Origin: an uncultured Bacteroidia bacterium
GTDB lineage: Bacteria > Bacteroidota > Bacteroidia > Bacteroidales > F082
Assembly (NCBI GenBank): GCA_902799345.1
Contig: CADBZW010000013.1
Location: forward strand, 1 to 57,330
Length of the DNA stretch: 57,330 nucleotides
Direction: 5' to 3'
Positions 5,815 through 39,166 of this stretch are shown in pieces (positions within the stretch are counted from its first letter, which is position 1; each line of letters opens with the position of its first letter). The notes beneath the pieces were generated by a model. The model was not told where the DNA came from. It was given only the letters and a program-made list of their open reading frames with translations, and made no database searches. Made by a program: the position numbers and the translations under genes.

Positions 5815-7254
5815 ATGAAAACGACAAGATTTTACACCCTGCTTGTGCTCCTGCTGATGGCGGGAGTATTGCAGGCACAAAACCATGATTGGCCAATAGA
5901 CCTGTGGACTGATGTGGTGACCGAGCAACCGGAAGGCTATGTTGTGGACGCTTTTGGTGACGTGCACATCTATTCCGCTGAGGGTTTGGCCTGGCTTTCG
6001 GTGCTGAGTAACGGCCTTCATGGGCAGGATGTGGATGAGTTTGAGGAAAGGACTGTCTATTTGGAGGAAAGCATTGATTTGGCAGGTCATGTCTGGACTC
6101 CGATCGCAGCCGCCACTTTTGATGAAACCACAGGCGATATGTACATCCATTATTTCAAAGGTGCTTTCGACGGGAAACAACATTTGATTGATAATCTGTT
6201 GCTGTATAAAGACTTTCCCCTTGAGCACATGGGACTGTTTGGAATCGTAAAAAACGGAGTAATACGCAACGTGATTGTCGAAAATTGTAGATTAGAGTTT
6301 AATATAATGGAGGGATGGACTCCTGTGTGCGGTGTTCTCGCCTATCATTTGGAAGAGAACTCCATGGCTGAAAACTGCTATGCCCATTGCTTGGAGTTCA
6401 AAGCAATCCATGGAGGCTTGTTTTATGGGGTTGACATGAACTCGTCGGTGACCAACTGCATGGTTCGATACGATTTCAAGTATGAAGGTTATTATGGCTG
6501 CGGAATCAGTGATTTCAATTATGGCAAGATTATCAATTGCGCATCTGTTATTGATACGTTGCAATGGCCTTATTTGTGGGATCCGTCGGGTGTTGCCAGT
6601 GAAAATTCTGGGCAAATCGAGAACTGCTACTCTTATTGGGGCGAGTTGGTGGAATTTCCATTCTATGCCCCTTATGCTCCTCGCAATGGTGTGGCCTACT
6701 TTAATGATTATGGTGTCGCCAAAAATTGTTATTACAATAGGATGCCACAAGTTTGGCAATTTGACGACAGTCCTGGTCACGGCGGAACGTTTCAGGATGT
6801 GTCGCAATATGACATGGAAAACGATGATTGGCAACTTATGAATCCGATCATCATAGGAGGTACAACAACAAATGATTTGGTCGAGGTGCTGAACCTTTGG
6901 ATTGACAGCCAACCCAACAGCGACGACTATCTCCATTGGTGTGCAGATACCACAGGCTTCAATCACGGTTTACCCATTTTCGCAGATTATGACTTGACCA
7001 GTATTGAAGAGCAATGCGAGAACGTTAACGCCATCGCTTATCCCAATCCGGGAAAGGATGTGCTGAATATCCGCACGGGGTTGCAGGATGCTTGGGTGGA
7101 AGTGTATGATGTGAATGGGAGACTTATACATAGACAGGATATTACGGAGAATGTGGCGGGGATTGATGCTGGGGGATGGGCTGAAGGAGTTTATGTTTGT
7201 AAGGTGATATCAAACGGCAAATTAGCGGAAACGGGAAAGTGGATTAAGGAGTGA
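5815..7254 (+). CDS. Secreted GLUG-like repeat protein with type IX secretion C-terminal domain
   Basis: 479 residues. A signal peptide (LLVLLLMAGVLQAQ) is followed by GLUG-like material (HMGLFGIVKNGVIRNVIVEN; later INCASV, IENCYSYWG), a repeat type common in bacterial surface proteins. The last 75 residues form a typical Por/type A sorting domain: IAYPNPGKDVLNIRTG, WVEVYDVNGRLI, and an end in GVYVCKVISNGKL. Such domains direct export across the outer membrane by the type IX system, usually with removal of the domain and anchoring to the surface. The ligand is unknown. It follows the TPR/HTH regulator on the same strand and has its own promoter. Confidence 0.88.
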   Translation: MKTTRFYTLLVLLLMAGVLQAQNHDWPIDLWTDVVTEQPEGYVVDAFGDVHIYSAEGLAWLSVLSNGLHGQDVDEFEERTVYLEESIDLAGHVWTPIAAATFDETTGDMYIHYFKGAFDGKQHLIDNLLLYKDFPLEHMGLFGIVKNGVIRNVIVENCRLEFNIMEGWTPVCGVLAYHLEENSMAENCYAHCLEFKAIHGGLFYGVDMNSSVTNCMVRYDFKYEGYYGCGISDFNYGKIINCASVIDTLQWPYLWDPSGVASENSGQIENCYSYWGELVEFPFYAPYAPRNGVAYFNDYGVAKNCYYNRMPQVWQFDDSPGHGGTFQDVSQYDMENDDWQLMNPIIIGGTTTNDLVEVLNLWIDSQPNSDDYLHWCADTTGFNHGLPIFADYDLTSIEEQCENVNAIAYPNPGKDVLNIRTGLQDAWVEVYDVNGRLIHRQDITENVAGIDAGGWAEGVYVCKVISNGKLAETGKWIKE

Positions 7255-7261
7255 CTCGACT

Positions 7262-7290
7262 CCCCCTGGCCCCCTCTGAGAGGGGGAAGC
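7262..7290. repeat. CCCCCTCT-type palindromic repeat, copy 3
   Basis: A third, shorter copy with the core CCCCCTCTGAGAGGGGG lies directly after the stop of the T9SS cargo gene. It may serve as a weak terminator, but no T-run follows. Confidence 0.6.
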
Positions 7291-7296
7291 GTTATA

Positions 7297-7354
7297 CGTG
7301 CTTACGTACTATCGTGCTAACGAGGTGGGACTTATAGGACAGATAAGACAAATA
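7297..7354. repeat. CGTGCTWA octamer array plus GGACAGATAAGAC repeat
   Basis: Three octamers (CGTGCTTA, CGTACTAT, CGTGCTAA; 7297-7320) are followed by GGGACTTATAGGACAGATAA and related sequence up to 7354. The same two-part arrangement recurs at 7842-7895. Degenerate versions lie at 832-865 and 1408-1435. Confidence 0.7.
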
Positions 7355-7373
7355 AAACGTAAAATATAAAACG

Positions 7374-7742
7374 ATGAAAAAGACAATTAGACTAATGCTG
7401 ATGCTGCTGGTTGTGGCAGGCATGATGACCGTATCCTCATGTAAAAAGGAGAAGGTGTTACCGGAAAAAATCACCGTTAGTGGCTATGTAACCTATGATG
7501 ACGGACAACCCTTTGTGGACGTTCATGTTTTGTTGTGTTCAAGCACCTTCATGGGTCCGAGCATTCCCTTAGGCGAAACCATTTACACCGACGAGCTTGG
7601 CCATTACGAGGTTGAATTCAAACCTGATAAAGACCATACTTACAAATTGATCTTCGAAAGTCACCAGTATTATCACAACTACAGTTTGACTAAATGGGAA
7701 GCAGTACAGGAACACGATGTTGTATGGGAGAAAATAGAGTAA
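7374..7742 (+). CDS. Small lipoprotein with carboxypeptidase-like regulatory fold
   Basis: 122 residues. The lipoprotein signal MKKTIRLMLMLLVVAG ends in VSSCKK. The mature part reads like a short transthyretin-like/carboxypeptidase regulatory domain: KITVSGYVTYDDGQPFVDVH, then a stretch resembling the Y-TDELGHYEVEF turn of such domains. These domains are beta-sandwich modules at the cell envelope with no enzymatic role. It is preceded by the octamer repeat and stands alone on the plus strand. A binding partner is not evident. Confidence 0.8.
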   Translation: MKKTIRLMLMLLVVAGMMTVSSCKKEKVLPEKITVSGYVTYDDGQPFVDVHVLLCSSTFMGPSIPLGETIYTDELGHYEVEFKPDKDHTYKLIFESHQYYHNYSLTKWEAVQEHDVVWEKIE

Positions 7743-7841
7743 CTTAGCAAATTCCAGCCTTACCAAAGCCATCGAGAGCCTTGGCCGCTCTATCGGCGAC
7801 AAGGGGTTGGTTCGGGGCTTTCTTTGGCTTTTTTCGGTATG

Positions 7842-7895
7842 CGTGTTATCGTGCTAACGACGGTGGGACTAATAGGACAGATAAGACTAATAGGA
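7842..7895. repeat. CGTGTTAT/CGTGCTAA octamers plus GGACAGATAAGAC repeat
   Basis: Two octamers at 7842-7857 are followed by GGGACTAATAGGACAGATAA and AGACTAATAGG. The same composite lies at 7297-7354. The ATG of the next lipoprotein gene is directly downstream (7898), so the repeat forms its whole leader. Confidence 0.7.
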
Positions 7896-7897
7896 AT

Positions 7898-8080
7898 ATG
7901 AAAACGACAAGGATATTCGCCCTGATGGCAGTTCTGATTTTGGCTGGATGCCGGGAAGGAAGAGACAAGGAATTGCCGCAAATGCCTGCTAGTGTTGACA
8001 CCTCGGAATTCGATGAGGCTTATTATGAACGGATGCGGGTGTTTGAGGGGTTGTGTCCGGATGTGGAACTGGATAAGTGA
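7898..8080 (+). CDS. Very small lipoprotein, function unknown
   Basis: 60 residues from the ATG at 7898; a longer reading from 7781 would run through a repeat and is not credible. The signal MKTTRIFALMAVLILAGC has a proper lipobox (ILAGC) and is followed by a short acidic tail (SEFDEAYYERMRVF). No known domain. The start MKTTR is shared with the T9SS cargo gene at 5815. Confidence 0.7.
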   Translation: MKTTRIFALMAVLILAGCREGRDKELPQMPASVDTSEFDEAYYERMRVFEGLCPDVELDK

Positions 8081-8108
8081 AGGGGGATTGGATTTTTTTT
8101 TCGATATT

Positions 8109-8134
8109 TGTGCTATCGTACTATCGTGCTAACG
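8109..8134. repeat. CGTGCTWA octamer array, three units
   Basis: TGTGCTAT, CGTACTAT and CGTGCTAA in a row, 80 bases upstream of the DUF4249 gene start. Same family as the arrays at 1451, 7297, 7842 and 11380. Confidence 0.7.
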
Positions 8135-8212
8135 AAGTGGGGCAATATATTATTTCCGTTGAGCGTTGAAAGTATTAGTAATTTAAGTGTAAACAACCAA
8201 ATAATAACCATA

Positions 8213-9121
8213 ATGAGAGTTTGCAGATTTGTTTTGTTTTTCTTGGCTGCGATGTTTTTTGCTTCCTGTAGCCGAATCGATGAGGTTGACATCAACAGTT
8301 TCGACCAGCCGGATGGCGGGGTCTTGAACGGCAACGTTGCCGTGTTCGGCAATGTGACTACCGAGATGCGCCAGCACCGCGTCACCATTTCACCTGTCCA
8401 TCAATGGGGCGACAACCAGAATGCCATGCCTGAAATCAACCGCGTTTTCGTGCTTTGCGGCAACGACACGATACCTTATATTGAAAAGGAAGCCGACCGC
8501 AGTAGTATGGTTTTCGTTTCGGAGCAACCCTTCAAAGGTGAGGCGGGCAAGACCTACAAACTCGTCGTCGAAACACCTACGGGCGACATCACCGCCGAGG
8601 ACTATCTGACGCCTTTGTGTGACACGGATTACCTCCCAATCATCAAGGACCATACAAAAGTGAGGAGCTATCAGATGCACTCGGGCATGATGGCGCATGA
8701 ATTCCAGTTCGACAAGCACATCTATACCGTTGGGGAACAACCTGTGATTTGCGGCCTGACCTTCCGACAGCCGGAGGATTACCCTATCGACAGCATCGAA
8801 AGTGTTTCTTTCGTGCATAACGACATGTCGCTCTCGGCATTGTTCACCGCCAGATTGTTCTGGTATTCCTATCATGTCACGGAAGATCATCTCGACCAAA
8901 GCGAGACTTTCATCACTTGTTCGGTCTCGCCCGAATTCTACACCTTCCTTTTGGATGTTTTCAACGAAGACGATTGGAGCCTGGGCCTGTTCGCCACCAT
9001 TTCGGGCAATGTGCGAGGCAATGTCAAGAACGGCTACGGCTATTTCTTCGCTTCCGATGTGCGACGCCAACCTTTTACTTACCACGAAATCTACAATGCC
9101 ATCACCCCCGAAAACGAATAA
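8213..9121 (+). CDS. DUF4249-family lipoprotein
   Basis: 302 residues from the ATG at 8213, chosen because it gives a lipoprotein signal (VLFFLAAMFFASC). An upstream in-frame start at 8108 lies within a repeat. The body resembles DUF4249: a beta-rich domain with EAGKTYKLVVETPTGDITAE, the segment that precedes the family's TP-like motif, and a C-terminal barrel-like part. Proteins of this family are outer-membrane lipoproteins encoded next to TonB-dependent receptors, and that is the case here: the receptor starts 3 bases after the stop. A role as a surface partner or substrate-binding lid of the receptor is inferred. Confidence 0.82.
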   Translation: MRVCRFVLFFLAAMFFASCSRIDEVDINSFDQPDGGVLNGNVAVFGNVTTEMRQHRVTISPVHQWGDNQNAMPEINRVFVLCGNDTIPYIEKEADRSSMVFVSEQPFKGEAGKTYKLVVETPTGDITAEDYLTPLCDTDYLPIIKDHTKVRSYQMHSGMMAHEFQFDKHIYTVGEQPVICGLTFRQPEDYPIDSIESVSFVHNDMSLSALFTARLFWYSYHVTEDHLDQSETFITCSVSPEFYTFLLDVFNEDDWSLGLFATISGNVRGNVKNGYGYFFASDVRRQPFTYHEIYNAITPENE

Positions 9122-21797: not shown

Positions 21798-21827
21798 TTG
21801 CCAATCCAAGAAAAGTCCGTACTTTTG
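21798..21827 (+). promoter_or_regulatory. Promoter of the SRP RNA gene
   Basis: TTG at 21798-21800, a 19-base spacer and TACTTTTG at 21820-21827 match the Bacteroidetes consensus exactly. The RNA begins 5 bases later. Confidence 0.8.
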
Positions 21828-21831
21828 CAAC

Positions 21832-21930
21832 GGGTAAGTCTTATACGACCAGCTCCCTCTGAAATCCCCCAGGACAGGAATGTAGCAAGGGTAGGAGGTC
21901 GTAGCGGTGCGATATGAGTAGCTTACCCTT
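21832..21930 (+). ncRNA. ffs: Signal recognition particle RNA (4.5S, small bacterial type)
   Basis: About 97 bases. The ends GGGTAAG (21832-21838) and CTTACCC (21922-21928) pair. The middle arms CGACCAGCTCCCTC and GTAGGAGGTCG form a long hairpin around the conserved SRP apical motif CAGGACAGGAATGTAGCAAG, which holds the GGAA-type loop and the asymmetric bulge bound by Ffh. T-rich sequence follows at once (CTTCTTTTTTG). A strong promoter stands directly upstream. Confidence 0.9.
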
Positions 21931-21958
21931 CTTTTTTGCCTTTTCTAAAACACTAATA

Positions 21959-30138: not shown

Positions 30139-30918
30139 CTAATAACTATTCCCATCTTGGAAGTTCCTATTCCCAATGTTGAATGTAATGTCTTGCATGT
30201 TGTGACTACGCACGTATTTCCCGTTCTTTTCGGCAGGAATCCATACCGTCTCCTGGATGAGTCGGATGGCTTCGTTGTCGCAGCCGCCGCCTACCGAGTT
30301 GACGATGACGATGTTCGACACGTTGCCGTTGGTCTCCACCACGAAACTCAGCCTCACCGTGCCTTGTATCTCGCGTTCCTTGGCGGCATCGGGGAATTTC
30401 AGGTTGTGTGCGATGTATTTACCCATGTTGCTGCCGTCGGCGAAATAGGGTTTGGCCACCTCGTTGAGTTGTTTGTACTCGTAGATTTTATAAGAGGTGT
30501 CTGCTTCCAAGGTCAGGGGGAGGGCTATGCGCTCGTGGCGCTTCCAATAGCGTTTGTAGCTCTTGGCGTTGAAGTCGAACTCGTATTCATAGTCGTATTC
30601 GATGGGCACGCCGATGTTTAAGGCAGGTTTCCATAGGATGGTCTTCGCCAGGTGCATCGCCATTGGCACGGCGGCCTCGCTGAAACTCGATTTCACCGTG
30701 TATTGGCTGGCGTTGCCTTGCTTGTCGAGGTGAAAGGAGATGACGACGGCACCGCTGTTGCCTTGGTTAAGGTCGGCTTCGGGATAGACAAGGTTTTGCG
30801 TGATGTATTCCTTGGTTAGGGGATAGCCTGCAACGGGTTCAGGCAGGGTGATTTGTGCCGTCAGATGCAGTCCCGTGAAGAGGGCTGCGAGCATAAGGAG
30901 GGTCTTTGAAGTTTTCAT
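30139..30918 (-). CDS. Periplasmic TonB C-terminal domain protein with two TonB-like modules
   Basis: 259 residues. The signal peptide (LLMLAALFTGLHLTAQ) is cleavable, and there is no N-terminal anchor or proline-rich spacer as in true TonB. Two TonB_C-like modules follow: EYITQNLVYPEADLNQGNSG with VVISFHLDKQGNASQY (about 37-110), and KYIAHNLKFPDAAKEREIQG with RLSFVVETNGNVSNIVIVNS and GGGCDNEAIRLIQ (about 165-255). It may be a periplasmic adaptor or a TonB-like subunit needing a partner. A -7 box lies on the minus strand at 30950-30957 (TACTTTTG). Confidence 0.83.
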   Translation of the reverse strand: MKTSKTLLMLAALFTGLHLTAQITLPEPVAGYPLTKEYITQNLVYPEADLNQGNSGAVVISFHLDKQGNASQYTVKSSFSEAAVPMAMHLAKTILWKPALNIGVPIEYDYEYEFDFNAKSYKRYWKRHERIALPLTLEADTSYKIYEYKQLNEVAKPYFADGSNMGKYIAHNLKFPDAAKEREIQGTVRLSFVVETNGNVSNIVIVNSVGGGCDNEAIRLIQETVWIPAEKNGKYVRSHNMQDITFNIGNRNFQDGNSY

Positions 30919-31086: not shown

Positions 31087-31833
31087 ATGGAAGACAACTA
31101 CAAGAATAATATGGTGTTCGGCATCCATCCTGTATTGGAGCTGATCCGCTCGCAGAAGGAGATTGAGAAGGTTTACATCCAAGGCGGTGTGCGTGCGCCC
31201 GAGATTGCGGAGATTGCCAACACCTGCCGTGCCAACGGCGTCCCAGTGCAGTTTGTGCCCATCGAGAAGATGAACCGCCTGACGCGCAAGAACCACCAAG
31301 GCGTGGTGGCCTTCATCTGCCCGATCGAATACCAACCTTTGGAGAAAGTGGTCCAGATGGTCTTCGAGGACGGCCGTGACCCCTTCGTGCTGATGCTCGA
31401 CCGTGTGACCGACGTGCGCAACTTCGGCGCCATCGCCCGCACGGCCTACGCAGCCGGCGTGGATGCCATCGTCATCCCCAACCATGGTTCGGCTTCCATC
31501 AACGGCGATGCCATGAAGACCTCCGCCGGAGCCTTGTCGTTAATCAACGTGTGTCGTGTGGAGAACATGAAAGACGCCATCGATTTCCTGAAAGCCAGTG
31601 GCTTGCGCGTGGTGGGCTTCACCGAAAAGGCCAAGGAGAGCCTTTGGAAATCCGACCTCACCGGTCCGCTCTGCGTGATGATGGGCTCGGAAGAGGACGG
31701 CATCAGCCCCGCCTATATGAAGCGCCTCGACGAGCATCTGATGATTCCCATGCCTGGCGACATCGATTCCTTGAATGTTTCCGTGGCGACTGGGGTGGTT
31801 TGTTTTGAGGTGGTGAGGCAAAGGATGGGGTGA
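31087..31833 (+). CDS. rlmB: 23S rRNA (guanosine-2'-O-)-methyltransferase RlmB (TrmH/SpoU family)
   Basis: 248 residues. An N-terminal substrate-binding domain (NMVFGIHPVLELIRSQKEIE, about 8-80) precedes the SPOUT methyltransferase knot. Its motifs are all present: DRVTDVRNFGAIARTAYAAG (about 101-120), CVMMGSEEDGISPAYMKRLD and IPMPGDIDSLNVSVATGVV. It transfers a methyl group from S-adenosylmethionine to the 2'-hydroxyl of a guanosine in 23S rRNA (G2251 in E. coli). It is a single-gene unit followed by two REP palindromes. Confidence 0.92.
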   Translation: MEDNYKNNMVFGIHPVLELIRSQKEIEKVYIQGGVRAPEIAEIANTCRANGVPVQFVPIEKMNRLTRKNHQGVVAFICPIEYQPLEKVVQMVFEDGRDPFVLMLDRVTDVRNFGAIARTAYAAGVDAIVIPNHGSASINGDAMKTSAGALSLINVCRVENMKDAIDFLKASGLRVVGFTEKAKESLWKSDLTGPLCVMMGSEEDGISPAYMKRLDEHLMIPMPGDIDSLNVSVATGVVCFEVVRQRMG

Positions 31834-31837
31834 AATT

Positions 31838-31919
31838 TGTAGAGACGTTGCGTGCAACGTCTTTTTATAACAATTGATTCCGTTGTGGTGAGACAGACGT
31901 AGCACGCTACGTCTCTACA
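31838..31919. repeat. Pair of REP palindromes (AGACGTNGC / GCNACGTCT)
   Basis: At 31838-31862 TGTAGAGACGTTGCGTGC is followed by AACGTCT; at 31895-31919 the other orientation, AGACGTAGCACGCTACGTCT plus CTACA, appears. The two face each other as in a BIME. The same family surrounds and enters the RAYT gene at 36335-36928. Confidence 0.85.
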
Positions 31920-31970
31920 TTTTTAGAAACCTTTTATTTAAATAGTTTCGTACATTTTCAAGAAAAATAA

Positions 31971-31978
31971 TATATTTG
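31971..31978 (+). promoter_or_regulatory. -7 box upstream of the structured RNA
   Basis: TATATTTG matches TAnnTTTG. A TTTCG at 31946-31950, 20 bases upstream, could serve as a weak -33 element. The expected start is near 31985. Confidence 0.5.
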
Positions 31979-31984
31979 CAAACT

Positions 31985-32232
31985 GAAATACAAATCATTA
32001 GTTGAACAAATAGATACTAAAGAATAAGATAACCATAAAAGGCATATTATTATCAGATAGCACTTGTTGCTGTCCTTGAACACCAAAGTTCCATTTAGTC
32101 CCTGTTTTGGCGGGGCAACATCTCAAGGACAAGTTACAAATGCCGTATTCATTACGGCGTGGAATACTTGTTAGAGATGTAGGGCGTGGAACCCCTGGTG
32201 TTCAAGCAAGGAATTGATTCCACGCTTTTTTT
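31985..32232 (+). ncRNA. Structured non-coding RNA, rod-like fold with intrinsic terminator (6S-like candidate)
   Basis: Six helices stack around one axis: CTTGAACACCA 32075-32085 with TGGTGTTCAAG 32196-32206; GTTCCA 32088-32093 with TGGAAC 32187-32192; ACATCTC 32118-32124 with GAGATGT 32174-32180; ACAAGT 32129-32134 with ACTTGT 32166-32171; GCCGTA 32142-32147 with TACGGC 32153-32158. An asymmetric internal bubble (32094-32117) can hold a small CCC/GGG hairpin. A terminator GCGTGGAA 32184-32191 with TTCCACGC 32218-32225 plus T7 ends it and competes with the rod. Such a rod with a central bubble resembles 6S RNA, but I do not recognise the sequence. No open frame is supported here. Confidence 0.6.
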
Positions 32233-32235
32233 ATT

Positions 32236-32330
32236 GCCTGTGCTTCGATTTGGCACAATCGGACAATAGATTTGCGGCGGGGAAATAAGAAAACAGGAAA
32301 GCCGACGCCTGAAGTAAGTAGGCAGAATTA
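32236..32330 (+). promoter_or_regulatory. Shared promoter/leader element, copy 1 (TonB-like gene)
   Basis: Blocks common with 33197-33290: GCCTGTGCTTCGATTTGGCA plus CAATC (32236-32260, with TGTGC/GCACA arms), an ATTTGCGG block overlapping the -7 box TAGATTTG (32267-32274), AGGAAAGCCGACGCCT (32295-32310) and AGTAGGC (32317-32323). GCCT and AGGC can pair. The spacing between blocks is the same within one base in both copies. Confidence 0.65.
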
Positions 32331-32343
32331 ATTGTGAAAAACT

Positions 32344-33186
32344 ATGGCAGTTAGAAAAATACCATTAGAAGGTGGTGGTTACATCAAGTTCGAAAATGAT
32401 GAAGAATACTATGAATGGCTTCAAAAAAAAGAAGAATTGCGACGCCAGCAACAAGAGGAAGAAGAATTTAAGTTGAAATTGAAAGCGATTGGTATCTTCA
32501 TTTTACTCGGCTTTTTAGGTATTTTGGGATTGTGTTCCGAAAGTAATCAAAAAAAAGAGAAAAAGGAAACTGTCAAAACTGCGAAAAAAGAAACTTTTAC
32601 TAAAAAACAAGTAGAACAAAATACACTTGTGGTTAATCCATCAACATCAAATGTTATGCAGGTTGAGGCCCCAAAAGAGATGGCGTCAGAACCAGTCGCA
32701 AATGTTATTGAAGAAATGGAAAGAAATGAAGATTTTGAAGAGTATGAAGATGTTGATGACTATGGAGATTTGGTAGAACACGGTGGAGTTGGAGAATATG
32801 ACGATTCTTATGAACCGGAGGAATCAATAGATGAAGCTACCGTTGAATCAGATTTTAGGGATGGGAAAGTCTATCAAAGAATGGAGGTAGACGAAGTGCC
32901 GAAATATCCAGGTGGTGAAAACGGTTTGATGGCATATATAGCTGAGAATACCGTATATCCTCAAAAAGCCTTGGAGGAAGGTGTTCATGGTAGGGTGTTT
33001 GTCAGCTGTATAATAGAACCTGACGGCAAAGTGACGAACGTGGAAGTGCTTCGTGGCATTGGCGGTGGCTGCGATGAAGAGGCTGTTCGAGTGATACAGT
33101 CATTGCCCAATTGGGAGCCTGGTGTTAGGCGAGGCAAAAATGTTAGAGTGGCTTTTGTTGTACCAGTAAAATTCGCGTTGGAATAA
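32344..33186 (+). CDS. Energy transducer TonB-like protein with central membrane anchor
   Basis: 280 residues. A charged cytoplasmic N-terminus (about 1-45, including EEYYEWLQKKEELRRQQQEE) precedes one transmembrane segment (AIGIFILLGFLGILGLC, about 48-64). An acidic, low-complexity periplasmic spacer follows (about 65-180), then a TonB C-terminal domain: YPGGENGLMAYIAENTVYPQ, RVFVSCIIEPDGKVTNVEVL, GGGCDEEAVRVIQSLPNWEP. It would energise an outer-membrane receptor. The long cytoplasmic head and acidic spacer are unusual for TonB. Its leader repeats in front of the graspetide-like operon directly downstream, so joint regulation and a role in transport of the peptide are possible. Confidence 0.85.
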   Translation: MAVRKIPLEGGGYIKFENDEEYYEWLQKKEELRRQQQEEEEFKLKLKAIGIFILLGFLGILGLCSESNQKKEKKETVKTAKKETFTKKQVEQNTLVVNPSTSNVMQVEAPKEMASEPVANVIEEMERNEDFEEYEDVDDYGDLVEHGGVGEYDDSYEPEESIDEATVESDFRDGKVYQRMEVDEVPKYPGGENGLMAYIAENTVYPQKALEEGVHGRVFVSCIIEPDGKVTNVEVLRGIGGGCDEEAVRVIQSLPNWEPGVRRGKNVRVAFVVPVKFALE

Positions 33187-33196
33187 AATACTTATA

Positions 33197-33290
33197 GCCT
33201 GTGCTGCGATTTGGCACAATCACTATTGATATTTGCGGTGTAAAACTTAATAAAAGGAAAGCCGAGGCCTTAGTAGGCACTGTCGAAAAT
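33197..33290 (+). promoter_or_regulatory. Shared promoter/leader element, copy 2 (graspetide-like operon)
   Basis: GCCTGTGCTGCGATTTGGCA plus CAATC (33197-33221), GATATTTGCGG (33228-33238), AGGAAAGCCGAGGCCT (33255-33270) and AGTAGGC correspond block by block to 32236-32330. The first block differs by one base. The element ends just before the ATG at 33300. Confidence 0.65.
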
Positions 33291-33299
33291 TCTAATAAA

Positions 33300-33551
33300 A
33301 TGACTTACAATCAAACAAAACTAGGGGATGATGTGATTATGCCGTTCCTTATGGGTTGCACGAGACCAGACGTGATTCAAACTGAATCAAGAAATGAAAA
33401 GTTCACTTATAACCCATTCATGCAAATGGGAGTTTATGATCTGAGAACTGTTGGAACATATTCCCTAAAAAATCATCCTACGATTTTGCCTGGTCGTCAC
33501 AGTGTCCCAGATAAAAAGAATGAGATCGATGATCAAAAACAGGTTAAGTGA
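33300..33551 (+). CDS. Putative graspetide (RiPP) precursor peptide
   Basis: 83 residues from the ATG at 33300. No signal peptide or known domain. The N-terminal part (MTYNQTKLGDDVIMPFLMGC) holds an MPFLMG segment that recalls, loosely, the PFFARFL leader motif recognised by microviridin ligases. The C-terminal third is rich in acceptor and donor residues for side-chain ester or amide bonds (S, T, K with D, E): LKNHPTILPGRHSVPDKKNE and then IDDQKQVK. The stop overlaps the GTG start of an MvdC/MvdD-type ATP-grasp gene by 4 bases, the usual position of a precursor. Assignment rests on position, size and composition. The core is not proven. Confidence 0.6.
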   Translation: MTYNQTKLGDDVIMPFLMGCTRPDVIQTESRNEKFTYNPFMQMGVYDLRTVGTYSLKNHPTILPGRHSVPDKKNEIDDQKQVK

Positions 33552-34543
33552 AGATTCTTATCATTACAAACAAGGAAGATGTTCATCCTAATCCAGTGAT
33601 TGAGAAATTGGTAAGTTGGGGAGAATCTGTCTTTCGTCTGAATACCGAGGCACTGCTCACTGACTATCAGTTTAGTTGGTGGGCAGATGCCAACGGCTGT
33701 GATTTTTGGATGCGTTGCATTCCCAATGGATTGGAAGTGCGAGGCTCTGAAATTACAGCCGTTTGGGATAGACGGCCTGTCCCACCATCGGAGTTGCTGT
33801 TGAAGAACAATGTCGCGATTGATAAGCACAATTTGATGGAGGCTTGCGGTTTTCTGTCGTTTTTGCGGTATTATCTGAAAGATATTCCGTCTATTGGCAA
33901 TATCGTGAATGATCGAGTGGCAGCATCAAAGATGCTGCAATACAAAGTGGCGACTGAAATAGGATTCGTCATCCCTCAAACTGTTTTCTCAAATGAGAAG
34001 GATCCGTTTGTGAAAATGGCCAAGAAACACGAAGCATTGGTGCTAAAGCCCATTGAAAACAGCGATATCTGGTTTGAAGAAACAGGACTGGACTATGTGT
34101 TTTATGCACAAAAAGTACCGTCTGGTGCGGTTGCAGATGTGCCTGAAACGGCTTTCACCCAGACTGTGACTTTTGCCCAAAATTATGTTGAAAAGGCATT
34201 TGAATTGAGAGTAACGGTTGTTGATTCGGAAGTGTTCGCTTGCATGATTGATTCACAAGCACAAAAAGAAGACCAAGGCAAAGTGGATTGGCGACAAGGT
34301 TATGATTACGGCCTAAAACACAGTATTTTCGACTTGCCAGAGGAAGTTTCAGAAAAGTGTAAATTGTTTTTGCACAAAATGGGTTTGCGCTTCGGTTGCT
34401 TCGATTTCATTGTAACGCCAGAAGGCCAGTATGTTTTCCTTGAATGTAATCCTAATGGGCAATGGCTATGGATAGAATTGGAAACTGGTTTATCTATATC
34501 TACCGCTATTGCCAGAAGTCTAACTAAAACAAATTGGGAATGA
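33548..34543 (+). CDS. ATP-grasp ribosomal peptide maturase (MvdC/MvdD-like graspetide ligase)
   Basis: 331 residues, starting with GTG inside the precursor stop (GTGA). The N-terminal domain (MKILIITNKEDVHPNPVIEK, FRLNTEALLTDYQFSWW) and the ITAVWDRRP segment are typical of graspetide ligases. The ATP-grasp domain carries VNDRVAASKML, HEALVLKPIE, RFGCFDFIV and the C-terminal magnesium/phosphate motif FLECNPNGQWLWIE (about 297-310). TGLSISTAIARSL closes the protein, as in the MvdC/D family. Such enzymes phosphorylate Asp/Glu side chains and join them to Ser/Thr or Lys of a precursor. Only one ligase is present, and no acetyltransferase or dedicated protease-transporter gene is seen nearby. Confidence 0.87.
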   Translation: MKILIITNKEDVHPNPVIEKLVSWGESVFRLNTEALLTDYQFSWWADANGCDFWMRCIPNGLEVRGSEITAVWDRRPVPPSELLLKNNVAIDKHNLMEACGFLSFLRYYLKDIPSIGNIVNDRVAASKMLQYKVATEIGFVIPQTVFSNEKDPFVKMAKKHEALVLKPIENSDIWFEETGLDYVFYAQKVPSGAVADVPETAFTQTVTFAQNYVEKAFELRVTVVDSEVFACMIDSQAQKEDQGKVDWRQGYDYGLKHSIFDLPEEVSEKCKLFLHKMGLRFGCFDFIVTPEGQYVFLECNPNGQWLWIELETGLSISTAIARSLTKTNWE

Positions 34544-35709
34544 ACAATGAAGAACTAATCAGTTTAATAGAACTCGTCGAATACTATAATAACGGCAAGA
34601 GACAAATGGAAGCAAAGCTGCCATATCATTTGAATGTCATAGATGAACTGTACATCAATGAGAATGGGCATAGCAGAATCTTGGCTAAGCTGCTTCAGTA
34701 CAAATCGGAAAACCAACAATATGATATGCTGGAGTCTATCATCGACTTTATTAGCAGAGAGACTCGTATGGAGAGTTTCGGGAGTATCAAGGTAAACCAA
34801 CCCGATATTACGCAAGAAAAGGAACGGATTGATTTATGGGTACGAGATAAAGACTATGCTATCATTTTTGAAAACAAAATTTATAATGCGGCAGACCAAG
34901 ATGCTCAATTGTGCAGGTATATAGAGAAAACCATTAAAAAAGGTTATCGTGAAGGCCAAATCTTTGTCGTATATCTTTCGCAAAATGGCGAAGAACCAGC
35001 TGAACAATCATGGGGAAGTTATAAAGATGCTTTCCAACATCATTATATAAACCTTTCTTTCAGAGATCATATCTTGCGTTGGCTGAAAGAACAAGTGTTG
35101 CCTAATCTCAGAATAAAGGAATCAGTGCTTCGCAGTGCCATTGAGCAATACATTGACTATTTGAATGGATTATTTGATTTAAGAACACAAAACGATACGA
35201 TAAATATGGAATTGGAAAGTATGATTATTGAAAAACTGAATCTCAATCAGTTTGAAAACGATTTTGACAAGGTTCGTTATCTACAAAACAAGGTTGAAGA
35301 AGTGAACGAGTTGTATAACCAACTTGCTAACCTCAAAAATAAGATTTATAAAGAAGCTAGAAAAAGAGTACTTGATCCGCATATTTGGAAATGGAATGAG
35401 GAAATAGCTATACTTTATCCGCAATTTGAGAAAAGCAAAGAAGGTGGCCATGTAGGTCTGCTGGTGTCTTTTAGGGGCGATTATGTAAACGTCCGAATTT
35501 CAGAAGACAATGACAGACAGATGTACTGTCAGGTTGATAAATACAGGCATGAAAAAGAGGAGTTAGGGTCAGAAGTGATACAGGCTGTAAGTTCTATTTT
35601 GCCCCGTCATGATAGAAAAATAAGCGTTTGGGAATACTTTGACATCAATGATTTTGATGGTGTGTTCAATTGTTTCAAAGAAGTGATGGGACTACTTGTT
35701 AAGGGATGA
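34540..35709 (+). CDS. PD-(D/E)XK nuclease superfamily protein in the graspetide-like operon
   Basis: 389 residues from the ATG at 34540, overlapping the ligase stop by 4 bases. The N-terminal domain has the nuclease core of PDDEXK_4-type proteins: INENGHSRILAKLLQY (about 30-45), then the catalytic lines ERIDLWVRDKDYAIIFENKI (D at about 98, E-x-K at 110-112) and DAQLCRYIEKTIKKG. The C-terminal half is helical with a coiled coil and a final domain of unknown type. Intact active-site residues suggest a working nuclease. This partner is not part of described graspetide pathways that I know. It could be an effector, a defence nuclease or an unrelated passenger. Confidence 0.82.
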   Translation: MNNEELISLIELVEYYNNGKRQMEAKLPYHLNVIDELYINENGHSRILAKLLQYKSENQQYDMLESIIDFISRETRMESFGSIKVNQPDITQEKERIDLWVRDKDYAIIFENKIYNAADQDAQLCRYIEKTIKKGYREGQIFVVYLSQNGEEPAEQSWGSYKDAFQHHYINLSFRDHILRWLKEQVLPNLRIKESVLRSAIEQYIDYLNGLFDLRTQNDTINMELESMIIEKLNLNQFENDFDKVRYLQNKVEEVNELYNQLANLKNKIYKEARKRVLDPHIWKWNEEIAILYPQFEKSKEGGHVGLLVSFRGDYVNVRISEDNDRQMYCQVDKYRHEKEELGSEVIQAVSSILPRHDRKISVWEYFDINDFDGVFNCFKEVMGLLVKG

Positions 35710-36308
35710 ACTCGAAGACCTTATATTGTTGGTGCGCGGCCAATGTTGGACTGATCGGCATGGTTCAGGCGCTATATACGATCGGAATGACTTGTATGTT
35801 TCGAATGGAAGAAGTGCGTTATCTTGAATATGGACCGCTGTTCATTTGGCTCGTGCTTTTAATTTTTCTTTGTCCAGGGAAAACTAATTCAGACATTTTG
35901 GCTAGGCTGTTGGTGCTGCTTGGAGGTGTCGCTCTCATTTGTTATGGCCGAAATCTATGCGATGTGGAACTCTCACTTGAAACAAAGTCGAAATTGAAAG
36001 CTTTATTGGGAATAATGTTTTTGGTTGGTTGCGTTTTTGCATCATTTGTGACCGTTTATGTATGGAAAAACTTTTCGGAAGTCACGTCAAGAAGAATGCT
36101 GTACAGAAACAGCCCTGTCGAAATGTTCAATGTTCGGTTGAAGTATTGTACTCATCAGTTTTTTGAAACAATGACAGTGATGGCGACAATCGTTCTATTG
36201 ACGGCTACTTGCATTGAACTTAAACCTATCGTTGAAGCCCACAAAACTGGCGACAACAATTATTGGGCTTTGCAATTATCCAGATACATTTATCATTTGA
36301 TTGACTAA
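35706..36308 (+). CDS. Multi-pass membrane protein, last gene of the graspetide-like operon
   Basis: 200 residues, overlapping the nuclease gene by 4 bases. Five hydrophobic segments at about 14-33, 43-58, 64-81, 98-120 and 152-172 (for example LLVLLGGVALICYG and FLVGCVFASFVTVYVW). A charged loop (SEVTSRRMLYRNSPVEMFNV) lies before the last segment. No family is recognised and there is no ABC or MFS signature. It may be an export or immunity protein for the peptide, by position only. Confidence 0.8.
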   Translation: MNSKTLYCWCAANVGLIGMVQALYTIGMTCMFRMEEVRYLEYGPLFIWLVLLIFLCPGKTNSDILARLLVLLGGVALICYGRNLCDVELSLETKSKLKALLGIMFLVGCVFASFVTVYVWKNFSEVTSRRMLYRNSPVEMFNVRLKYCTHQFFETMTVMATIVLLTATCIELKPIVEAHKTGDNNYWALQLSRYIYHLID

Positions 36309-36334
36309 TACTCGTACGCTGTTTTTATAACTCA

Positions 36335-36928
36335 TCACGGCGTATAAAATTCATCATCCTTCCAATTCGCCACATTGTTTTCGATATAGGATGCAATTTG
36401 ATTCAATTCGCCGTTGTTGCGGATGATGTGGTCGTGGAAACGGGGTTGCCAGGCGAATAGGATTTCGTTTTCGTTGGCATATTTTGTAACCGCAGATTTT
36501 AATCCACGAATGACGGCAGCCAATGAACCTCGTTTTGGTGACCTTTCAGCCATGTGTTCGTCTTTCTCCGTCTCGTTTGTAGAGACGTAGCGTGCTACGT
36601 CTCCTGCAGAATGATTTGGTTCCATGGATGAGACGTTGCACGCAGCGTCTCTACATGCTGACACGACAACAATGGCATGAACATGATTGGGCATAATGGT
36701 AAACAATGGAATCTCGGCATAAGGATAATGCGTTGAAACATTTTGAAATTGTTCGGCGGCATACCCACCAATTTCCGATAGAACCATTTCTCCATCTCGA
36801 ATTTCACCGAAAGAATGTTCCCGATATTTCGTGCAGATGGTGATGAAATAGATTCCTCCGTCATAATCATGCCATATTGCACGGGCGGATTCAATGCGAT
36901 ATTTGTTTTGCCATCTGTCGTCTGACAT
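36335..36928 (-). CDS. REP-associated tyrosine transposase (RAYT, IS200-like Y1 family)
   Basis: 197 residues. Family blocks: GGIYFITICTKYREHSFGEI, IMPNHVHAIVVV with the metal-binding HxH (NHVHA), SLAAVIRGLKSAVTKYANEN with the catalytic tyrosine in TKY, and FAWQPRFHDHIIRNNGELNQ. RAYT proteins cut and join REP palindromes as single-stranded DNA. The gene is flanked by REPs (36953-37057) and contains two in frame (36578-36602, 36631-36655). These encode the insertion (about residues 91-117) between the HxH and tyrosine regions. All known key residues are present, so activity is plausible. Confidence 0.92.
   Translation of the reverse strand: MSDDRWQNKYRIESARAIWHDYDGGIYFITICTKYREHSFGEIRDGEMVLSEIGGYAAEQFQNVSTHYPYAEIPLFTIMPNHVHAIVVVSACRDAACNVSSMEPNHSAGDVARYVSTNETEKDEHMAERSPKRGSLAAVIRGLKSAVTKYANENEILFAWQPRFHDHIIRNNGELNQIASYIENNVANWKDDEFYTP
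36578..36655. repeat. Two inward-facing REP palindromes inside the RAYT coding sequence
   Basis: TGTAGAGACGTAGCGTGC plus TACGTCT at 36578-36602, and AGACGTTGCACGCAGCGTCT plus CTACA at 36631-36655. One belongs to the GTAGC subtype and one to the GTTGC subtype. Both are translated without breaking the frame. Confidence 0.88.
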
Positions 36929-36952
36929 ACCTGTTTGATTTAGGGTTTCGTT

Positions 36953-37057
36953 TGTAGAGACGTAGCGTGCTACGTCTTAATAATAACCATTAGACGTTGC
37001 ACGCAATGATTGATGATCGCATTTCTTTCATAAGACGTTGCACGCAACGTCTCTACA
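36953..37057. repeat. REP cluster upstream of the RAYT gene (three units, one partial)
   Basis: A full GTAGC-type REP at 36953-36977, a truncated GTTGC-type at 36992-37007 (AGACGTTGCACGCAATG) and a full GTTGC-type at 37033-37057 (AGACGTTGCACGCAACGTCT plus CTACA). The cluster fills the gap between the RAYT start and the S9 peptidase stop. Confidence 0.85.
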
Positions 37058-37066
37058 AATTCTACA

Positions 37067-39166
37067 TCATTTCAAATATTTATCCAACCAATTGTAGAAC
37101 CGTCTCTGCCACAAAATTCCGTTTTGCGGTTTCAGCACCCAGTGGTTCTCGTCGGGGAAATAGAGGAACTCGGCAGGGATGCCGCGTAGGATGGCCGCGT
37201 TGTAGGCCTGCATGCCCTGCGTGAAGCAGATGCGGTAGTCCAAGCCGCCATGGATGACGAGGATGGGCGCGGTCCACTTGTCGACGAAAAGGTGGGGCGA
37301 GTTGGCGTAGGTCTTGCGCACGGTGGCGTCGTTCCACTGCCAGTAGGGGCCGCCGAGGTCCCAGTTGACGAACCACATCTCCTCGGTCTCAAGATATTGT
37401 GCTTCAAGGTTGAACATGCCGTCGTGGGCGATGAGGGCCTTGAAGCGGCCTTCGTGGTGACCCGCCAGCCAGTACACGCTGAAGCCGCCGAAGCTGGCAC
37501 CCACGGCACCGAGGCGGTTCTCGTCAATGTAAGGCTCCTTGGCCAACTCATCGATGGCGCTGAGGTAGTCCTTCATGCACTGCCCACCGTAGTCGCCGCT
37601 GATTTCCTCAAGCCATTCCTGACCGAAGCCGGGCAAGCCGCGACGGTTGGGGGCGACGATGATATAGTCGTTGGCGGCCATCATCTGGAAGTTCCAGCGA
37701 TAGCTCCAGAACTGGCTTACCGTGCTCTGAGGTCCGCCTTCGCAGTAGAGCAGGGCAGGGTATTGCTTGCTCTCGTCGAAGTGAGGCGGGTAGATGACCC
37801 ACACGAGCATGTCCTTGCCGTCGGTGGTCTTCACCCAGCGTTCCTTGACCTCGCCCATGGTGAGTTGGGCGAAGATGTTGTCGTTGATGTGCGTGATTTG
37901 CGTGGCTTCGCCCGTGGTGGGGCTGACGGCAAACAGCTCCGTCGGGTGGCTCATCGACTGGCGGCCAGCTATGAGGTTGTCGCCGTTGAACTGTACGGAG
38001 ATATAGTTGTGCTTGCCCGTCGTCAACTTTTTGATGTCGCCGTTCTCGAGGTTGAGGGCGTAAATCTGGTCGGTGGCATAGGCGTCGCTGAGGAAATAGA
38101 GCATCTTGCTGTCGTCGGCCCAGCTGAAGCTCGTGCAGCATTGGTCGAACTTGGCGGAGTAGTCGGTCTTTTGTCCGGTGAGGAGGTCCATCACGAAGAG
38201 GCGTTGCTTGTCGCTCTCATAGCCGTCGCGTTCCATGCTCTCCCAAGCCATGTAGCGGCCGTCGGGCGAGATGACGGGGTTGAGGTCGTAGCCCATCATG
38301 CCTTCGGTGAGGTTCTTGCACTCGCCGCTTTGGATGATGTACTGGTAGATGTCGGTGTTGGTGGAGAGGGCGTAGTCCTTGCCGACTTTCTTGCGGCAGC
38401 AGTAGACGAAGCTCTGTCCGTCGGGCAGCCACTGCACCTGCTCCATCCCGCCGAAGGGACGCACGGGGGCTTCCCATTGCTCGTCCTTCATGGCGTCGAA
38501 AGCGTTCTCGATCTTGCCGTTGCTGAAGTTGCCCACGAAGATATGGCCGTAGGTGTCGACCCATTGGTCCCAGTGGCGGTACATCAGGTCGTTGTTGATG
38601 CGGCCCGACGACTTGTCAAGGTCGGGATAGATGTCGGCCACGGTCTCTTTCAGCTTCACCTCTTTTGTGAAGAGCACCTGGGCGCAGTCGGGTGAATAGA
38701 GGAAGCCGTTGATGTCATCGGCCTCGTTGGAGACGCACTGGCGGCCTGTGCCGTCGGGGTTGATTTCCCAGAGTTGCATCACGCCGTCGTCGTTAGGGGC
38801 GAGGAAGCCGATTTTCTTGCCGTCGGGGCGCCATTGCGGGCTGTATTCGCTCACGTTGGCATCCGACAGCACGCGGTTGTTCGAGCCGTCGGCGTTCATA
38901 ATATACAAGGTGGAGCCGCTGCGGTTTTCGGGCACGCTGTAGTAGGTCACGTTATAGACGATTTGCGAGTGGTCGGGCGAGAGGCTGTACTCCCCGATGC
39001 GGCCCATGGCCCACAGCACCTCGGGCGTCATGATGTCCGACTGCAGGGTGAGTTCTTGAGGCCCGATTTTGTCTTTGCCTTTGGGCTCAGTCTCAGGCTT
39101 TTGTGTGTTGCACGATACGATTGAACAGGTAATCATGGCTAACAGGAAAAGTTTGGTTTTTCTCAT
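37067..39166 (-). CDS. S9 family prolyl oligopeptidase-like peptidase, lipoprotein
   Basis: 699 residues. A lipoprotein signal (LFLLAMITCSIVSC) anchors it in the envelope. The N-terminal two thirds form a beta-propeller with TolB/WD-like repeats (YSLSPDHSQIVYNVTYYSVP, SPQWRPDGKKIGFLAPNDDG, PVISPDGRYMAWESMERDGY). The C-terminal alpha/beta-hydrolase has the nucleophile in GASFGGFSVYW (about 554-564), the aspartate in HGGLDYRI and the histidine in DENHWV. It resembles dipeptidyl peptidases and acylaminoacyl-peptidases of Bacteroidetes and probably degrades peptides in the periplasm. Confidence 0.92.
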   Translation of the reverse strand: MRKTKLFLLAMITCSIVSCNTQKPETEPKGKDKIGPQELTLQSDIMTPEVLWAMGRIGEYSLSPDHSQIVYNVTYYSVPENRSGSTLYIMNADGSNNRVLSDANVSEYSPQWRPDGKKIGFLAPNDDGVMQLWEINPDGTGRQCVSNEADDINGFLYSPDCAQVLFTKEVKLKETVADIYPDLDKSSGRINNDLMYRHWDQWVDTYGHIFVGNFSNGKIENAFDAMKDEQWEAPVRPFGGMEQVQWLPDGQSFVYCCRKKVGKDYALSTNTDIYQYIIQSGECKNLTEGMMGYDLNPVISPDGRYMAWESMERDGYESDKQRLFVMDLLTGQKTDYSAKFDQCCTSFSWADDSKMLYFLSDAYATDQIYALNLENGDIKKLTTGKHNYISVQFNGDNLIAGRQSMSHPTELFAVSPTTGEATQITHINDNIFAQLTMGEVKERWVKTTDGKDMLVWVIYPPHFDESKQYPALLYCEGGPQSTVSQFWSYRWNFQMMAANDYIIVAPNRRGLPGFGQEWLEEISGDYGGQCMKDYLSAIDELAKEPYIDENRLGAVGASFGGFSVYWLAGHHEGRFKALIAHDGMFNLEAQYLETEEMWFVNWDLGGPYWQWNDATVRKTYANSPHLFVDKWTAPILVIHGGLDYRICFTQGMQAYNAAILRGIPAEFLYFPDENHWVLKPQNGILWQRRFYNWLDKYLK

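Follow-up and report, generated by a model that had tools for sequence, protein, structure and literature searches.

The window analysed here, a stretch of 57,330 nucleotides from an uncultured bacterium of the Bacteroidales (contig CADBZW010000013.1), carries a compact operon that sequence comparisons identify as a genuine graspetide operon, of a variant that recurs in relatives and is tied to DNA enzymes; its biosynthetic class is firm. Its four genes, all on the + strand (33300-36308), encode a graspetide-type precursor of 83 amino acids from a conserved family adjoining the ligase (33300..33551, ATG start), an ATP-grasp graspetide synthetase of 331 amino acids resembling MvdC, MvdD and SAV_5884 (33548..34543, GTG start), a PD-(D/E)XK nuclease of the PDDEXK_4 family of 389 amino acids (34540..35709, ATG start) and a membrane protein of 200 amino acids with five hydrophobic segments, hereafter the five-transmembrane (five-TM) or MEM protein (35706..36308, ATG start). 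All four genes are intact and successive genes overlap by four bases (GTGA between precursor and ligase, ATGA between ligase and nuclease and again between nuclease and membrane protein), as described in a sequence-only reading of this DNA that preceded our analysis. That reading had also proposed a pathway for a ribosomally synthesized and post-translationally modified peptide (RiPP); the family of the ligase and the co-occurring conserved precursor support this proposal and point to the graspetide type. The host genome comprises 3.13 Mb in 51 contigs and is 90.8% complete; the window contains a Bacteroidales small SRP RNA at 21825-21932.

Relatives were collected by a scan of genome contigs, from which the best 80 loci of 389 relatives, mostly from Bacteroidales to judge by their record titles, were taken; Muribaculum sp. 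An289 and Alistipes sp. An66 are among the carriers of related operons. The sequence set contains 82 entries (L001-L081 and the window piece), 13 of which (12 distant loci and L001, a duplicate of the window) were set aside for subfamily counts. One of the 69 remaining rows (L043) has no ligase open reading frame (ORF), and keeping one representative per 90% ligase identity led to 50 non-redundant loci.

The ligase carries the motif ECNPNGQWLWIE at residues 299-310 and matches the NCBIfam models TIGR04187 (E 7e-58), TIGR04184 (MvdD, 5e-46), TIGR04185 (MvdC, 3e-45) and TIGR04192 (6e-33). Among solved structures, a profile built from 20 ligase sequences matches 5ig9 (E 2e-51), as well as 5ig8, AMdnB (7m4s) and CdnC (7mgv). 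The stretches KAFELRVTVV, DWR and ECNPNG are in register with 5ig9 and 5ig8, which we take to be MdnC and MdnB, respectively, both being listed in the structure search as ATP grasp ligase. The matches to TIGR04187, TIGR04184 and 5ig9 place the protein in the MvdC/MvdD/microviridin family of ATP-grasp ligases, to which it had been attributed from the sequence alone; by homology, it is a graspetide-type synthetase, microviridin/MvdD-like.

An ORF of the precursor BLAST cluster is present at 53 of the 81 places, the window being counted once (it appears twice among the 54 members of the cluster), and is usually located directly upstream of the ligase; several of the remaining places correspond to cut contigs or distant ligases. 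The filter used to detect precursors found none in 20 of the 81 loci, several of them again cut or distant. Among 393 evenly sampled Bacteroidales genomes, five, including the host genome, encode a close ligase (>440 bits) and three more give distant matches at 211-221 bits. The precursor profile (A7), which contains none of the own precursors of the other four genomes, detects exactly the same five genomes with one copy in each, the host genome included. The precursor has no match in Pfam, NCBIfam or PHROG, and its start codon aligns with those of its homologues.

The alignment of 51 distinct precursors (61 aligned sequences minus L054, L057, L058, L064, L065, L069 and L081, with identical sequences collapsed) contains invariant residues at P15, Y37, Q42, T53, D77 and D78 and nearly invariant ones at D71, K73, N74 and K80 (each in 50 of the 51 sequences); T61 occurs in 44/51 and E75 in 39/51. 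The leader (residues 1-48), which includes MPFLMGCT and Y-N-P-F-M-Q in the window, exhibits the subfamily motif MPLLM-x-[FCY]-[TS] with P15 in 51/51 sequences, and follows Phhx(1,2)h, the signature described for graspetide leaders in general (PMC8939145). The sequence-only reading had considered that the classical leader motif was lacking, apart from a loose MPFLMG; this hexapeptide is instead the conserved motif of the subfamily and fits the general signature. We also rejected the idea of a degenerate leader, the leader being typical of its family across the 51 aligned precursors.

Downstream of the leader, the precursor exhibits a graspetide donor/acceptor core, with putative stem donors T53 and T61, a hypervariable loop (residues 62-70) and putative acceptors D71 and D77/D78. 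The arrangement T53-x7-T61-loop-D71-x5-D77-D78 is the pattern of a stem-loop graspetide. By analogy, T61 and D71 would form the inner pair and T53 and D77/78 the outer one. Position 55 (S in 43, C in 8 sequences) and position 57 (K in 30, R in 19, H in 2) are both too variable for S55 and K57 to be the main donors. A leader-guided ester closure of the stem, with a free loop, is a prediction that we regard as very probable.

The loop between T61 and D71 varies from 4 to 20 residues. In 1427 pairs drawn from 54 precursor rows (before collapsing identical sequences), mean pair identity is 12% in the loop, 40% in the leader (residues 14-48) and 68% in the stem (49-57 and 71-80). Some closely related precursors have entirely different loops: L005 and L007 share 100% identity in the leader, 95% in the stem and 7% in the loop, L012 and L019 share 97% in the leader and 0% in the loop, and L003 and L007 share 94% and 20%, respectively. 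At the DNA level, the members of these three pairs are near-identical before the loop, unlike through the loop and more alike beyond it. The pairs L016/L025 and L009/L050 exhibit a wider DNA divergence than these three cases of whole-loop replacement. In sequence terms, this pattern resembles a scaffold that is under constraint overall but whose loop diversifies in episodes.

We compared the genes located less than 2 kb from the ligase (near) with those beyond (far) in the 50 non-redundant loci, using our own profiles and Fisher's test. Genes encoding PDDEXK proteins are found in 11/210 near and 0/285 far genes (p 7e-5), those encoding TerB-like proteins in 11/210 near and 0/285 far genes (in 10/50 loci) and those encoding UDG-like proteins in 9/210 near and 2/285 far genes (p 0.009). 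At least one of PDDEXK, TerB, UDG-like and MEM is present near the ligase in 30/50 loci. PDDEXK_4 (9 members), TerB (9) and UDG (6) are also the three commonest Pfam families among 128 near neighbours. To build this neighbour set, 28 redundant or distant loci were dropped and the remaining 54 contributed at most four ORFs each within 2.6 kb. Of the resulting 203 candidates, 150 were preselected and 22 of these were left out by hand, many as presumed spurious; the family tallies rest on the 25 commonest of 121 families for the subfamily neighbours and of 51 for the control described below. The UDG-like proteins have GESHYC-type and HPSS-type motifs, which we recognise as UDG-superfamily-like, with weak Pfam support (best 5e-4).

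The association of the nuclease with the ligase exceeds the genomic background. In a set of 119 genomes, 21 have PF14281 matches, 35 in total, and two of these 35 belong to the window operon and to that of genome G088; assuming about 3 Mb per genome, our own arithmetic predicts well under one PF14281 gene near 50 ligases. The order ligase-nuclease-MEM of the window recurs in L013, L014 and L022, and in L020 with one gene inserted. On a quick ligase tree (69 rows; L014 left out for its short ligase ORF), the nuclease label, which joins all nuclease types within a 3.3 kb limit, requires at least 10 changes, 17 of 65 inner branches being open. Loci with TerB and loci with the nuclease mostly belong to different clades of this tree, L021 being an exception. 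In 295 Bacteroidales genomes, 14 provided a control set of 20 grasp-with-SPASM loci, with 74 near neighbours of at least 75 amino acids. No ORF of these loci matched the nuclease, UDG, TerB or MEM profiles (0/74 near); the commonest families among the 74 control neighbours are SPASM (7), DUF6624 (6), C39 (5) and ABC (5), with one PDDEXK_3 protein too. The control neighbourhoods are incomplete because many control contigs are short.

Sequence comparisons thus suggest that DNA enzymes (PDDEXK and UDG-like), TerB and the membrane protein are interchangeable, recurrent partners of the ligase. The comparison of ligase-nuclease neighbourhoods and upstream peptides across genomes, which the sequence-only reading had put forward as a check, showed that the nuclease recurs near the ligase and that the precursors form a conserved family. 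The partnership seen in that reading is accordingly non-random and shared by relatives; the nuclease itself is one of several exchangeable partners and not an obligatory one, since it lies within 2 kb in 11/50 loci.

The nuclease belongs to PDDEXK_4, with a match to PF14281 at E 8.5e-20 (71.9 bits for a cut-off of 22.3), and it matches the PADLOC model PDC-S26 at E 6e-36. The residues E41, D98 and E111-N-K113 are invariant in all eight aligned sequences, the window included, in agreement with the intact D…E-x-K residues noted previously. The AlphaFold model (pLDDT 81, pTM 0.49) consists of an N-terminal alpha/beta part, two long helices (192-232 and 241-292) and a C-terminal alpha/beta part; the top Foldseek rows, all weak, include AF1548, MspJI, LmuA and HincII and are compatible with a restriction-type fold. 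The protein has no hydrophobic segments, which points to the cytoplasm.

In the loci set, 21 ORFs match the MEM profile if the window gene is counted twice, as it was here. These proteins share an N-terminal W-x-x-A-N motif and a C-terminal S-R-R-M-L-Y-R-N-S region, with eight invariant columns among 17 aligned sequences, and have no Pfam match. The structure model (mean pLDDT 60) was too weak for use, and a PADLOC 2TM_IV match at E 0.074 was set aside as chance-level.

Several loci exhibit other arrangements. L064 encodes a single protein (6998-8836) in which PDDEXK_4 (residues 299-408) is fused to a stretch related to small genes located beside other ligases. UDG-like domains follow an N-terminal stretch of membrane-spanning appearance in L006 (1873-3474), L007 (7720-9387) and L071 (7714-9321), and these genes adjoin a soluble UDG-like gene and a membrane protein gene. 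In L056-L058, genes for a radical SAM protein and for a protein of 540 amino acids lie behind related ligases, and the precursor of L057 and L058 is of a different, glycine-rich type. Finally, L073, L078, L079 and L080 encode a small membrane protein family downstream of the ligase, beside repeat-core (thuringinin-like) precursors; by eye, these membrane proteins resemble two-TM proteins of other conflict systems.

The C39 peptidase/transporter is the top-ranked graspetide partner (PMC8939145, Table 1). A profile built from five C39 ORFs of the control loci matched six control ORFs, those five among them, and none of the 1228 ORFs of the fetched loci, distant loci included. No Peptidase_C39 was found in the host genome, at its 90.8% completeness, and the same search was positive in 8 of the 14 control genomes. 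In addition, the 51 precursors contain no conserved GG site, position 52 being G in 42/51 and position 51 being V, I, T, L or H; the system thus does not fit the type of GG-leader graspetides with a C39 exporter. Since neither this exporter nor the GG site was found, and cytoplasmic-type DNA enzymes have been recruited repeatedly, the peptide rather likely exerts its effect within the producer or at its surface.

In the mechanism that we infer for the bonds and their topology, the retention in the cell, the control of the nuclease and the conflict function, the ligase would bind the PLLM/YDxxxQ leader of the precursor and close Thr53 and Thr61 onto Asp71 and Asp77/78 via side-chain ester bonds, giving a stapled stem with an exposed, fast-evolving loop. 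The peptide would stay in the cell or at the membrane, where it would form a mobile conflict module with the co-translated DNA enzyme (PD-(D/E)XK here, UDG-like elsewhere) and the five-TM protein. Within this reading, it would most probably control the nuclease, as an inhibitor or a trigger, the variable loop being responsible for recognition. We propose this reading as a whole, i.e., a stem-loop graspetide, a DNA enzyme and a membrane protein forming an intracellular module for conflicts with phages or rivals, only tentatively, with slightly less than even confidence. A sharper version seems distinctly unlikely at present: an immune or conflict system inside the cell, built on a RiPP, in which the stapled peptide with its hypervariable loop would serve for recognition or inhibition, in the way of an antitoxin or of the loop of a complementarity-determining region, and would hold or release interchangeable DNA-attacking effectors together with the membrane protein. 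The PDC-S26 profile, the patchy island and the partner enzymes may hint, only indirectly, at an anti-phage role.

Several observations weigh against the conflict module. The ligase remains under the curated cut-off of every model listed (196.2 bits for 350 with TIGR04187, 157.3 for 475 with TIGR04184, 154.9 for 425 with TIGR04185 and 26.2 for 27 with PF21068) and, because of these scores, falls outside the named NCBIfam subfamilies TIGR04187, TIGR04184 and TIGR04185. Loops are kept in the close pairs L002/L004, L030/L031, L032/L033 and L037/L041, in the L039-L047 group and, by eye, in L034/L035, and the loops were not seen to follow the type of partner, no dedicated test having been made. Only 11/50 loci have the nuclease near the ligase, and in 20/50 none of the four partners is near it. 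Within 150 bp downstream of the ligase, the gene that follows on the same strand encodes a nuclease in 6 of the 50 loci, a UDG-like protein in 3, MEM in 2 and another protein in 24, and there is no such gene in 15. The MEM protein as a tightly linked partner is unsupported (8/210 near and 6/285 far genes, p 0.20). Finally, the Foldseek search with the nuclease model gave no match at E <= 0.001, the best being 0.015.

The peptide could instead be a secreted, bacteriocin- or signal-like graspetide, with the five-TM protein serving for export or immunity and the nuclease or UDG-like protein for self-protection or for killing outside the producer. Hypervariable loops suit competition peptides too, the TonB-type gene upstream of the operon has the same upstream element as the precursor, and uncharacterised membrane proteins have been proposed as exporter stand-ins in thuringinin loci (PMC8939145). 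The lack of a conserved GG site and of C39 matches in the fetched loci and the host genome, the single precursor per genome in all five carriers and the nuclease pointing to the cytoplasm argue against secretion, which we consider rather unlikely. A peptide for stress or envelope surveillance, working with TerB-like and membrane proteins and with the nuclease or UDG-like protein as optional outputs, would agree with the confinement of TerB-like genes to the vicinity of the ligase (10/50 loci, 0/285 far genes) and with the 21 ORFs matched by the MEM profile. None of the six scanned window proteins around the precursor matches TerB, however, and the TerB and nuclease loci mostly form separate clades, L021 excepted, making this explanation improbable.

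The neighbourhood could also be noise, if graspetide operons and defence-type nucleases both gather in variable islands and their overlap has no functional meaning. The presence of GmrSD, SRA/PvuRts1I-like and YhcG proteins (one member each) among the 128 neighbours and the variable insertion site are consistent with this. Against it stand the restriction of PDDEXK genes to the near class in the same loci, the low PF14281 background with two of its 35 matches being these operons, the four-base overlap in the window, the recurrent ligase-nuclease-MEM order (L013, L014 and L022, with an insertion in L020) and the absence of this partnership from the 20 control graspetide loci; we judge such noise to be highly improbable. 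Most graspetides of known role are protease inhibitors, and a subfamily without a detected C39 exporter, with replaced loops and repeated uptake of DNA enzymes, suggests a different RiPP role, inside the producer. This compact, testable four-gene unit would also provide a new stapled scaffold whose loops vary in nature, with which one could study the selection that acts on them.

The site of the operon is island-like and looks mobile. The G+C content in 1-kb steps is 0.36-0.42 between 32.0 and 37.0 kb, against 0.47-0.52 between 27.0 and 32.0 kb, and is 0.49-0.59 between 36.5 and 42.0 kb, save for 0.43 at 39-40 kb. The flanking genes, which we take to be RNA-methyltransferase-like (31087-31833) and prolyl-oligopeptidase-like (37067-39166), are neighbours in four of four congeners, 1.8-2.4 kb apart against 5.2 kb here, with other genes between them; precursor and ligase are absent from all four. 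At the same site, the close congener G201 (L103, 2365-4662) contains DNA matching the transposase-like gene of the window and an unrelated gene of 495 amino acids replacing the peptide operon. A gene resembling REP-associated tyrosine transposases (36335-36928, - strand) matches Y1_Tnp above the cut-off and NF047646 below it (E 8e-15), and 33-nucleotide REP-like palindromic repeats bracket the island (31830-31914, 36570-36650 and 36945-36977). Carriage by phages or plasmids was considered and rejected: the two phage matches reach 30-31% identity and all 72 plasmid records remain below 60% (28-37% for the 20 listed), so that no close carrier was found in these collections. Eight relatives on viral contigs are distant (27-41% identity), and no relative of the precursor was detected on these contigs. 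An ATP-grasp gene of the Leptospira phage KF114876.1 (59117-60061) has 30% identity to the window ligase. One internal stop codon was reported for a distant gene of the graspetide-type ligases matched in L087 (G065:C30).

Upstream of the operon, a gene on the + strand (32344..33186) encodes a membrane-anchored protein of 280 amino acids with a TonB C-terminal domain (PF03544, E 4e-19) and one hydrophobic segment near residues 46-64. An element of about 80 nucleotides precedes both this gene (32231..32310, + strand) and the precursor gene (33192..33270, + strand), the two copies being 78% identical; elsewhere in the genome, the best matches span 17-24 bases (E >2). The element preceding both genes, with no other strong copy, suggests a common control, and the TonB-like gene is possibly a member of the regulon of the precursor. 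Apart from this gene, its BLAST cluster is represented at 30139-30918 of the window and in L022 alone, and no ligase adjoins these members. The pattern TTTG/TAnnTTTG of Bacteroidales promoters was not found upstream of the precursor in the window (31800-37000) and occurs in 1 of 59 upstream stretches; sigma-70 and terminator scans remained at shuffle level.

The sequence-only reading knew of no described graspetide system with a nuclease partner, and none was found in the literature that we searched (mostly outside subscription papers), in which no paper describes, by its title and the beginning of its abstract, a link of graspetides to a nuclease, UDG or TerB. In Makarova et al. (2022), the common partners of graspetide ligases form 18 clusters; none of these is described as nuclease, DNA glycosylase or TerB, and the main text does not use these words (PMC8939145). 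Carter et al. (2026) extended graspetides to 43 groups (PMC13097080), with a DNA helicase named for group 10 and, for group 36, a weak match related to chromosome segregation; its main text contains neither nuclease nor TerB nor Bacteroid as a word, and the subfamily may already be numbered in the supplements.

Among known systems, the window family resembles fuscimiditide and amycolimiditide (ThfA/ThfB) in its two Thr donors on the N-terminal side, its loop and its two Asp acceptors on the C-terminal side, as predicted here from the sequence. Pre-fuscimiditide has an outer ester between Thr-3 and Asp-22 and an inner one between Thr-7 and Asp-18, and its ligase tolerates glycine-serine loops of 4-72 amino acids (PMC12291112). 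The window family differs from this type by its occurrence in Bacteroidales, a wider donor spacing (T-x7-T), a leader with PLLM and YDxxxQ, its link to nuclease, UDG-like, TerB and membrane genes, and the absence of an isoaspartyl methyltransferase among the 25 commonest of 121 neighbour families. Its ligase belongs to the same ATP-grasp family, over its full length, as the microviridin ligases 5ig8 and 5ig9, AMdnB (7m4s) and CdnC (7mgv), but the precursor is different and lacks a core of the TxKYPSDxEE type, the microviridin motif. Like the grasp-with-SPASM graspetides of Bacteroidetes (TIGR04192; compare branch 5 in PMC8939145), it combines a graspetide-type ATP-grasp protein with a Bacteroidales host, whereas the latter have SPASM, DUF6624 and C39/ABC neighbours in our control loci, in which the partner profiles of the window subfamily match nothing. 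Finally, the window nuclease resembles stand-alone PDDEXK_4 candidate defence nucleases in matching both PF14281 and PDC-S26, the latter being presumably, judging from its name, a candidate and not a proven defence system; unlike them, it is translationally coupled to a graspetide ligase.

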